From an uncultured Treponema sp. (GTDB lineage Bacteria > Spirochaetota > Spirochaetia > Treponematales > Treponemataceae), in the NCBI GenBank assembly GCA_934667505.1, contig CAKULY010000025.1, positions 1-29,746 of the forward strand: a stretch of DNA of 29,746 nucleotides, given 5' to 3'. The translations under genes were made by a program, and so were the position numbers. The notes under the pieces were generated by a model, which was not told where the DNA came from, searched no databases, and was given only the letters and a program-made list of their open reading frames with translations. Every line of letters starts with the position of its first letter. Within the stretch, counting starts at the first letter, position 1. This document shows, in pieces, positions 5,010 through 6,258 of the stretch.

Positions 5010-5084
5010 GAGATTGTAGCTCAGCTGGATTAGAGCACCACCCTGCGGAGGTGGGGGTCGCACGTTCGAATCGTGTCAGTCTCA
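5010..5084 (+). tRNA. tRNA-Arg (GCG)
   Basis: A 75-base cloverleaf. Acceptor stem GAGATTG/CAGTCTC, D-stem GCTC/GAGC, anticodon stem CCACC/GGTGG with loop CTGCGGA (anticodon GCG at 5045-5047, U33 in place), T-stem GCACG/CGTGT and an A discriminator. The D-loop GGA gives A20, an arginine identity element. A GCG anticodon is unusual because most bacteria read CGU/CGC with an inosine-modified ACG tRNA. Confidence 0.9.
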
Positions 5085-5113
5085 AAAACTCGTCACGACG
5101 GCGAGTTTTTTTT
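5085..5113 (+). terminator. Intrinsic terminator of the tRNA cluster
   Basis: AAAACTCGTC pairs with GGCGAGTTTT around loop ACGAC and is followed by a run of eight T. It begins one base after the tRNA-Arg end. Confidence 0.9.
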
Positions 5114-5129
5114 ATTTAACAGCAAATCA

Positions 5130-5158
5130 TTTACAATCTTTATAAAAACTGCTATATT
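5130..5158 (+). promoter_or_regulatory. Promoter of the pheA leader transcript
   Basis: TTTACA (5130-5135), a 17-base spacer and TATATT (5153-5158) lie just after the tRNA terminator. The predicted start is within a few bases of the leader peptide ATG at 5168 and about 230 bases before pheA, leaving a long leader RNA. Confidence 0.65.
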
Positions 5159-5167
5159 TTATCCACA

Positions 5168-5251
5168 ATGCAGAAAAATATTTTTTCTCTAAAAATTCAA
5201 ATCTTTTTAATCTGTTTTCCTACTTTATTCTTCGCCTTTTGGCGAGCGTAG
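5168..5251 (+). CDS. Candidate Phe-rich leader peptide of pheA
   Basis: A 27-codon open frame in the long leader of pheA. The peptide contains six phenylalanines (residues 6, 13, 17, 21, 22 and 24), with the densest group near its end (PTLFFAFW), much like the run of Phe codons in the E. coli pheL peptide. It ends in TAG shortly before a series of possible hairpins. There is no Shine-Dalgarno site; the promoter is placed so that the mRNA would be leaderless or nearly so. The T-rich base composition makes Phe codons common by chance, so the case rests on position, the dedicated promoter and the downstream alternative hairpins. Inference, not proof. Confidence 0.5.
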   Translation: MQKNIFSLKIQIFLICFPTLFFAFWRA

Positions 5252-5261
5252 TTTATTTTTT

Positions 5262-5380
5262 GTGCAGAAGACAAGAACTTGCACGGTAACCTGAAAAACA
5301 CACATGGACAATGTACGCTTAAGCCAAGACCTTGACTTTGCAGTCCTTAAGGTTTGTATAAGCCTTAAATCAAATCTTTT
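5262..5380 (+). promoter_or_regulatory. Possible pheA attenuator: pause, antiterminator and terminator hairpins
   Basis: Three foldings are visible after the leader peptide stop. A 6-pair hairpin GTGCAG/TTGCAC (5262-5284) could pause polymerase. A compound hairpin pairs AGACCTT (5327-5333) with AAGGTTT (5349-5355) around an inner GACT-TTGC-AGTC stem. A 9-pair hairpin (5347-5368, loop GTAT) is followed by a weak T tract (5377-5380). The last two share 5347-5355 and cannot form together, as antiterminator and terminator do. The weak T tract and the closeness to the pheA start also allow control of translation. Confidence 0.45.
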
Positions 5381-5397
5381 AGAACATGGAAAACCTT

Positions 5398-6258
5398 ATG
5401 AAATCTGAAATAAATTTAGAAATCTGCGCATACAGCGGAAAACGCGGAGCTTACGCCCAGCTTGCAGTAGACAAATATTTTAATAAAAAAGTAAAATCCT
5501 TAGCTGTTGATAGTTTCAAAAGCATCTTTCAAGATGTAGAAAAAGGTCTTGCTCAATACGGTATGGTTCCTATAGAAAACAGCACCGCTGGAAGTGTTTA
5601 CGAAAACTACGACAATTTTGCAGTGTTCAAAAATGTGCATATCATAGGAACGACAACGCTTAAAATTGAACATTCGCTTTTAGCTTGCAAAGACGCTTCT
5701 ATTGAAACTATAAAAAACGTGTATTCGCATCCGCAAGCGCTTTGCCAGTGCTCAAACTTTTTAGAGCAACATAAGGGATGGGCGCAGACCGACACAGTTT
5801 CTACAGCAACGGCGGCAAGTCTTGTAAGTTCAAAAAATTCCATAGATTGCGCCGCTATTGCAGATGCAGGAAATGCTGAAATTTATGGCTTAAAAGTCCT
5901 AAAAAATTCCATTCAAAACAACGAAGATAATTTTACAAGATTCGTAGTCATTGCAAATCAGCCCCGAAAAGACTTTCCAAAAGGAAAACTAATCGCTTCT
6001 TTAAGTTTTTGCACAGAAAACAAACCCGGAGCTTTATACGAATGTTTAGGAATCATAAAAAACTGCCACTTAAACCTTACACGCCTTGAATCAAGACCAA
6101 TTCCGCAAAAACCATGGACTTATAGATTCTTTACAGACGCAGTATTAGAAGAGCAAATTGAAAATCCGACGGAATACATTGCAATTTTCTTAAAAAAAAT
6201 GAAAGACTCCGCATCTGACATAAAACTCTTAGGCCTATATCCAGAATCAGAAAATTAA
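5398..6258 (+). CDS. pheA: Prephenate dehydratase with C-terminal ACT domain
   Basis: Monofunctional prephenate dehydratase, converting prephenate to phenylpyruvate in phenylalanine synthesis. The catalytic domain shows the AYSGKRGAYAQLAV start block, the PIENSTAGSV block and the NFTRFVVI motif carrying the catalytic Thr-Arg-Phe. The C-terminal ACT domain has the GALYE and ESRPIPQKPWTYRFF blocks that bind Phe for feedback inhibition. I chose ATG 5398 (286 residues) because GGA lies 8 bases upstream; ATG 5386 would add four residues but has no ribosome site. No chorismate mutase domain is fused and no other aromatic gene is adjacent. Upstream is a candidate Phe attenuator, which would fit control by Phe-tRNA supply. 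Confidence 0.96.
   Translation: MKSEINLEICAYSGKRGAYAQLAVDKYFNKKVKSLAVDSFKSIFQDVEKGLAQYGMVPIENSTAGSVYENYDNFAVFKNVHIIGTTTLKIEHSLLACKDASIETIKNVYSHPQALCQCSNFLEQHKGWAQTDTVSTATAASLVSSKNSIDCAAIADAGNAEIYGLKVLKNSIQNNEDNFTRFVVIANQPRKDFPKGKLIASLSFCTENKPGALYECLGIIKNCHLNLTRLESRPIPQKPWTYRFFTDAVLEEQIENPTEYIAIFLKKMKDSASDIKLLGLYPESEN

Follow-up and report, generated by a model that had tools for sequence, protein, structure and literature searches.

What stands between a tRNA gene cluster and pheA in an uncultured Treponema sp., and does it sense phenylalanine? The window analysed here is a 29,746-nucleotide stretch of DNA (contig CAKULY010000025.1, assembly GCA_934667505.1); the coordinates of the locus refer to it, and all of its features described here lie on the forward strand. 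A sequence-only reading had proposed that pheA is controlled by an attenuator with a Phe-rich leader peptide. Comparison with related genomes upholds the kind of system, namely a Phe leader within a conserved element, but not the details of its hairpins, and transcription is perhaps stopped in another manner than had been suggested. It is quite likely that 5130-5298 is a Phe-sensing leader-peptide attenuator of a type common to Treponema relatives, a judgement which excludes the step at which transcription is stopped. By sequence comparison, the promoter, the frame, its Phe codons, both hairpins and the gene context are conserved; translation, a Phe response and the step that stops transcription are what we infer.

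The leader region in front of pheA

The pheA gene (5398..6258) encodes a stand-alone prephenate dehydratase of 286 aa (PF00800, E 3.8e-59; NF008865, 223 bits with a cut-off of 219). Its start is probably ATG 5398 (MKSE...) rather than ATG 5386, which would extend PheA by MENL, since P0001 and P0002 (94% and 90% identical) begin with MKSE. The tRNA-Ser/Ser/Arg cluster upstream ends in an intrinsic terminator (5084..5110; the fold of 5084-5115 has -12.1 kcal/mol, with a T run), which separates the cluster from the leader, so that the leader lies between this terminator and pheA. A second small frame of 34 aa (5304..5408) overlaps the pheA start by 11 nt and shows coding-like codon usage, at the 38th percentile of true windows, with 12.5% of wrong-frame windows scoring as high; it could encode a translationally coupled small protein.

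The promoter proposed for the leader is indeed present: a motif scan finds a promoter-like site at 5130..5158, with the -35 box TTTACA, a 17-nt spacer and an extended -10 box TATATT with TG. Because the scan finds 7 such sites in 1.8 kb compared with 3.9 expected, this site by itself proves nothing; its -35 box and spacer are conserved in the 43 leaders described below. The frame proposed for the leader peptide (5168..5251), whose ATG lies 9 nt past the -10 box, was confirmed in the sequence and in homologous leaders. It reads MQKNIFSLKIQIFLICFPTLFFAFWRA-stop and has 27 codons, six of them for Phe (codons 6, 13, 17, 21, 22 and 24). The T-rich composition of the region had been named as a weak point; given an open 27-codon frame of this composition, at least six Phe codons occur in 39% of cases. 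Among 4000 dinucleotide shuffles of the window leader, 3.5% contain an ATG frame with at least six Phe codons, and 9.3% reach this number if GTG and TTG starts are allowed. Furthermore, the codon usage of the leader frame is not gene-like, 99.8% of the 427 true coding windows having a higher score, and the fold of the leader is ordinary (z -0.98; 35 of 200 shuffles equally good). Taken by itself, the window contains parts which are barely beyond chance, and the case is not proven.

Hairpin 1 (TTCGCC-TTTT-GGCGAG, 5231..5246), which was absent from the sequence-only reading, lies over the last codons of the frame; it is seen in relatives and is terminator-like by a loose scan (4 such sites compared with 2.4 expected). 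A U-rich spacer (5252..5261) leads from it to hairpin 2 (TTGTGCA...TGCACGG, 5260..5286), which is found by folding and in relatives and is the hairpin that had been claimed shortly past the leader stop. In the window, the outer stem of hairpin 2 is kept, and the inner stem, which covaries in relatives, is degenerate or lost. The conserved element ends (5285..5290) with GGTAAC, GGTAAT or GGTAGC (29, 12 and 2 of the 43 leaders, respectively), which may pair partly with the U tract. The two hairpins that had been proposed closer to pheA, 5327-5355 and 5347-5368, are mutually exclusive in the fold as claimed, but lie outside the conserved element, and no counterpart was seen when the leaders of relatives were compared by eye.

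Relatives of the element and the genes behind it

An alignment of pheA leaders from related Treponema had been proposed as a check. Some pheA match is present in 232 of 274 family genomes, the best being 58% identical among the matches listed, and a single-sequence scan of genome contigs for close pheA relatives found none. The stronger matches mostly lie in open frames of about 600-700 codons, and Pfam identified the one examined in this way as a DAHP-synthase/prephenate-dehydratase fusion. Where the match is weak (E about 1e-40), the genome encodes another prephenate dehydratase, and one of six such proteins inspected (L233) is fused to chorismate mutase. Stand-alone prephenate dehydratases without a long extension were noted in the window, L127, L128, L130 and L134, and those within 600-700-codon frames in many Treponema relatives (e.g. 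L081-L116 and L225), with a DAHP synthase fusion in L225.

Three of 47 pheA or aroF-pheA loci are cut by contig ends, and the element is found in only one of the 44 readable upstream regions (up to 290 nt each). This is L106/L147 (G084), where a Phe-rich frame ending in FFA is followed by TTCGCC-nnnn-GGCGAG, a U-rich spacer and GTGCA-n-TGCACGGTAACC, the same letters as in the window. Searching the other 43 loci with model R3 (see below) gave a best E of 0.3. On this count the element was rejected as a general pheA attenuator; the usual downstream gene is paaK.

The pattern GTGCA-N4-20-TGCACGGTAAC matches in 25 of the 274 genomes (reversed control, 0). A full leader is present in 21 of the 26 pattern matches; those without a leader (L141, L142, L148, L165 and L166) are omitted from alignment A2. 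The 21 full-leader matches and the window make up model R1, which found 42 copies in 41 of the 274 Treponema-family genomes, each with an E of 5.9e-12 or lower; the remaining 11 matches have E 1.9e-4 or worse. The weak matches L208-L214 (E 1.9e-4 to 0.05) were dropped by eye as unlike leaders; L209 and L211 contain Phe-containing frames, but in another layout. A phylum-wide search of 392 genomes with a second model, R2, yielded 13 strong matches, all in genomes already known. R1 and R2 include the window, whereas R3 consists of the 41 other distinct copies without it, its rows having been found and aligned using R1, which contains the window. Across the 29.7 kb window, R3 gives a single match, the whole element at 5219..5298 (45.2 bits, E 2.8e-10), and nothing further up to E 10. 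Because of this leave-one-out match, the window is assigned to the conserved Phe-leader element; it is a diverged copy, with 45 bits in R3, the others scoring 58.7-105.4 bits in R1, where most of these others are themselves included. L197, whose element is identical to that of L181 from the same genome, is omitted from A4 and A5.

When the leader, three relatives and the complete window were searched against Rfam, only the window tRNAs and SRP RNA gave matches above threshold. A T-box or other Rfam family was rejected, as no curated model reaches threshold over the element. A sub-threshold Thr_leader match was noted at 401-471 of L207 (31.7 bits, cut-off 55; E 0.0069), with the Phe element downstream at 619-702.

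Downstream of the 42 copies are genes for a PaaK-like phenylacetate-CoA ligase in 39 cases, the aroF-pheA fusion of G084 in one, and contig ends in two, of which L205 stops after the first codons of a PaaK-like gene. Two PaaK-like genes were tested and scored 539 and 548 bits with TIGR02155, below the cut-off of 646. Element and paaK are about 30 to about 215 nt apart; by eye, repeat-like insertions lengthen this gap in L171, L176, L178 and L182. The gene order in G059 is a POR/IorB-type subunit, a SpoIIE-type protein, the leader, paaK and an ACT-domain pair. Rumen anaerobes are known to synthesise Phe from phenylacetate, a route reportedly described by Allison, and a Phe signal ahead of paaK is sensible because of this route. 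Making Phe from phenylacetate is what we take to be the role of the gene behind the 39 copies. In the window and in G084, the leader adjoins a gene supplying Phe, pheA and aroF-pheA, respectively. The element also suggests that related species place one and the same Phe signal ahead of either phenylacetate activation or de novo Phe synthesis, depending on the genome.

Of 38 inspected regions ahead of paaK that lack a model match, 17 have the end of a POR/IorB-type frame close by, one has a variant leader (L256), and neither was seen in 20; in the 17, paaK stands closely behind the IorB-type frame without a leader of its own. L256 (G061) carries at 372-560 a divergent Phe leader before paaK, in which hairpin 1 is followed by a small hairpin and five T that replace hairpin 2. 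By eye, the regions before paaK in L246-L248 share a common stretch, TTATTGTA...AGAAACAT...TTCAGGGAG, without a Phe leader, possibly a different regulatory element.

Conservation of the frame and the hairpins

The 42 copies and the window give 43 leaders, in which the -35 box is TTTACA in 40 and TTGACA in 3 and the spacer is always 17. The ATG lies 6-9 nt past the -10 box in 42 leaders; in the exception, L196, a first ATG lies 1 nt past the box and a second, in-frame ATG 7 nt past it. Since the ATG is so close to the -10 box, the RNA probably begins at or almost at the AUG, and the leader start would be leaderless or nearly so. The absence of a Shine-Dalgarno sequence, which had been noted as a weak point, is accounted for by this position of the start codon.

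The Phe-codon frame proposed for the window is conserved in its relatives. The ATG shares its reading phase with the GCC (Ala) codon of hairpin 1 in all 43 leaders, and among 39 distinct frames Phe accounts for 29.8% of residues, compared with 12.3% expected from composition and with 10.5% and 15.0% in the shifted frames. The leaders have eight different lengths (15, 17, 18, 19, 20, 21, 22 and 27) and 4-8 Phe each. Forty of the peptides end with FFA, the stop codon lying inside the hairpin-1 loop; those of L206, L207 and the window extend further (FASWRV, FASWRA and FAFWRA, respectively), with the stop just past hairpin 1. Over the 21 nt preceding hairpin 1, T/(T+C) is 0.94 at the first codon position but 0.57 at the third (39 distinct frames), which argues for selection for Phe codons, beyond pyrimidines alone. 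Furthermore, single-base codon differences among 36 distinct FFA-class leaders are synonymous in 1145 cases and not in 593, with 1133 of 1738 at the third position, counts which compare related sequences and are not of independent events. The conserved frame and its third-position variation suggest that the leader is translated.

In the 42-sequence alignment, 93.8% of cells are paired. The covariation score is 0.119 compared with 0.073 for shuffled alignments (0 of 500 as high) and at most 0.035 when slid, and 28 cells are changed on both sides compared with 13.7 in shuffles. Of the five covariation measures, two are no higher than in the shuffles, namely both-side-changed pairs (3 vs 3.5) and further pair types (10 vs 12.3). 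It is the inner stem of hairpin 2 (C-G 25, U-A 9, U-G 7; and A-U 16, U-A 10, C-G 6), together with one outer pair (C-G 33, U-A 3, U-G 3), that lends support. Five of six pairs in hairpin 1 and five of seven in outer hairpin 2 are invariant, part of this invariance stemming from the pattern used for finding the first set. The pairing of hairpin 1 is plausible, albeit unproven because it is invariant except at its base; the codons that it covers also dictate its sequence, the last Phe and Ala codons forming the 5' arm in every leader. All 43 leaders keep 17-19 nt between the GGCG of hairpin 1 and the GTG of hairpin 2. The conserved pairings are those of hairpins 1 and 2, and not the two nearer to pheA, which fall outside the element. 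By eye, a frame starting in hairpin 2 (ATGCG...TAA) is uninterrupted in certain copies and disrupted in others.

Possible stopping steps and comparison with known attenuators

In the mechanism we propose, the RNA would start at or just before AUG 5168, and a ribosome would load on the near-leaderless start and read the peptide with its clustered Phe codons. With charged tRNA-Phe in good supply, the ribosome would reach the stop at hairpin 1 and leave; under scarcity, it would stall on the Phe codons and cover the 5' arm of hairpin 1 together with pyrimidine-rich RNA. The position of the ribosome would decide whether RNA polymerase passes into pheA, or into paaK or aroF-pheA in the relatives. 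A ribosome in the leader frame could act only on hairpin 1 and the surrounding pyrimidine-rich RNA. No conserved antiterminator or strong terminator was recognised in the sequences of the 43 leaders.

We tentatively favour Rho as the stopping step, judging it the most likely single candidate, albeit with less than even confidence, and placing it ahead of hairpin 1 as a weak terminator. Over the 78 nt that precede hairpin 2, the pyrimidine fraction is 0.67, which 0.5% of background windows reach, and the C/G ratio is 1.7 compared with 1.0, which 8% reach; a Rho gene was found in 8 of 8 genomes tried, seven of them over the cut-off, and G084 shows it as two partial matches on a single contig. 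However, the pyrimidine bias follows partly from the Phe codons themselves, and hairpin 1 satisfies the loose terminator rule (at least 5 T among 8 bases, 0-2 nt from the stem) in 35 of 43 leaders, the window included, which favours another stopping step. That step would be hairpin 1 as a weak intrinsic terminator, past which polymerase proceeds when a stalled ribosome covers the 5' arm, so that no antiterminator is needed; we consider this rather unlikely, although its T-rich tail, the flagging of the window copy by the scan and the last Phe and Ala codons in the 5' arm are in its favour, as is the tail of L256, TTTAATTTT. Its dense T run begins several nucleotides past the stem, and the d-type terminator score is below 0 in 43 of 43 leaders (median -42), an uncalibrated score which serves for ranks only, since the tRNA-terminator positive control is also below 0 (-10). 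Neither Rho nor a weak terminator as the stopping step accounts for hairpin 2 with GGTAAC.

Alternatively, the leader frame would sense Phe with an output other than termination, the hairpins affecting mRNA stability or binding a protein, for which hairpin 2 would be the site. The hairpin-2 internal loop and the flank GGTAAC/T are conserved beyond pairing needs, at the fixed spacing from hairpin 1. This alternative is nevertheless unlikely: no partner was identified, and the variable distance between element and paaK makes direct control of the ribosome site unlikely. A broader proposal, which we regard as possible but short of probable, is that the element defines a spirochaete-specific attenuator class before paaK and pheA/aroF-pheA, combining a leaderless Phe frame with a fixed two-hairpin element without a strong intrinsic terminator or classical antiterminator, in which hairpin 2 and GGTAAC would be a new termination or antitermination signal.

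A classical trp-type switch, in which hairpin 1 is the 1:2 hairpin, its 3' arm pairs into an antiterminator, and an intrinsic terminator follows downstream (hairpin 2, or 5347-5368 in the window), appears improbable. It would fit L256, where hairpin 1 is followed by the small hairpin AGCAG/CTGCT (-4.2 kcal/mol) and five T, and where the hairpin-1 arm can pair with the small-hairpin region (-10.1 kcal/mol); it would also fit the mutual exclusion of the two additional window hairpins. In the 43 main-class leaders, however, pairing of the hairpin-1 3' arm with hairpin 2 is at chance (mean -6.86 vs -6.99 shuffled; 18 of 43 better), and a switch between hairpins 1 and 2 as antiterminator was rejected on this ground. 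A terminator-like hairpin past hairpin 2 was found in 1 of 43 leaders (L170) and is absent in the window, one of the scanned regions being shorter than 100 nt; hairpin 2 itself satisfies the loose rule in none of the 43 and is not followed by a U tract. The switch of the sequence-only reading is likewise not supported, its two hairpins lying outside the element and lacking a visible counterpart in relatives.

It is very improbable that the product is a functional small hydrophobic peptide with incidental hairpins: frame and third-position variation would agree with this, but the 31 distinct peptides differ in length (15-27 aa) and at the N-terminus, and the constants are Phe near the end, the distance to the hairpins and the kind of downstream gene. 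That T-rich intergenic DNA has yielded Phe codons and hairpins by chance is hardly credible, because the weak statistics of the window alone are outweighed by the leave-one-out E of 2.8e-10 and conservation in 41 genomes.

Leader-peptide attenuation has long been known, and the systems found to come nearest to the Treponema element are those of Acholeplasma aroF, Sinorhizobium meliloti trpL and Corynebacterium ilvB-II. In the enterobacterial pheA and pheST attenuators, competing hairpins end in an intrinsic terminator. The Treponema element resembles these in having a Phe-rich leader peptide before a Phe gene and a hairpin at the leader end, but differs in that it appears to lack a conserved antiterminator or strong terminator. 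Stalling of a ribosome on an upstream frame is linked to Rho-dependent termination in tnaC. It is similarly tied to Rho-dependent termination in the E. coli toiL uORF as described in PMC12121999, although Rho action in Treponema is inferred only, and toiL senses translation stress and acts via the topAI ribosome-binding site. The presumed closeness of start codon and RNA 5' end is reminiscent of Sinorhizobium meliloti trpL, described as a leaderless amino-acid attenuator in which the RNA begins with the start codon of the peptide (PMC7298713), and which responds to Trp and belongs to an alphaproteobacterium. Like the Treponema leaders, the Corynebacterium ilvB-II uORF is described as having a conserved frame with lengths all multiples of three and enriched end-product codons; it differs in concerning branched-chain amino acids and in a P2 followed by uridines like an intrinsic terminator (PMC10272879). 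The uORFC-13-1 motif of Acholeplasma aroF, as described in PMC8632094, shares promoter, start codon and Phe-coding uORF before an aromatic-pathway gene with the Treponema element. It comes from another phylum and is described as having, in addition, a ribosome-binding site as well as what looks like an intrinsic terminator adjacent to it.

A 2010 survey (PMC2965389) names Proteobacteria and Actinobacteria as the only groups with demonstrated leader-peptide systems, ermC excepted, and adds Firmicutes to them; the Acholeplasma motif is a later prediction (PMC8632094). We found no description of the present element among the papers listed by searches of the open literature. The comparisons point to an amino-acid-sensing switch in a phylum for which we found no described example in that literature. 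If this is true, spirochaetes would join the leader-peptide phyla, with a leaderless start and without a canonical terminator, and the element would be a natural test of transcription control by a stalled ribosome without competing hairpins.

Other Phe-rich small frames were seen before aroF-pheA or pheA in L092, L107, L130 and L134, and also in L106 besides the element's own. In L134 (G065), a hairpin of -18.9 kcal/mol with a long T run lies 18-63 nt before a stand-alone pheA, and it may be either the terminator of the upstream gene or another attenuator.
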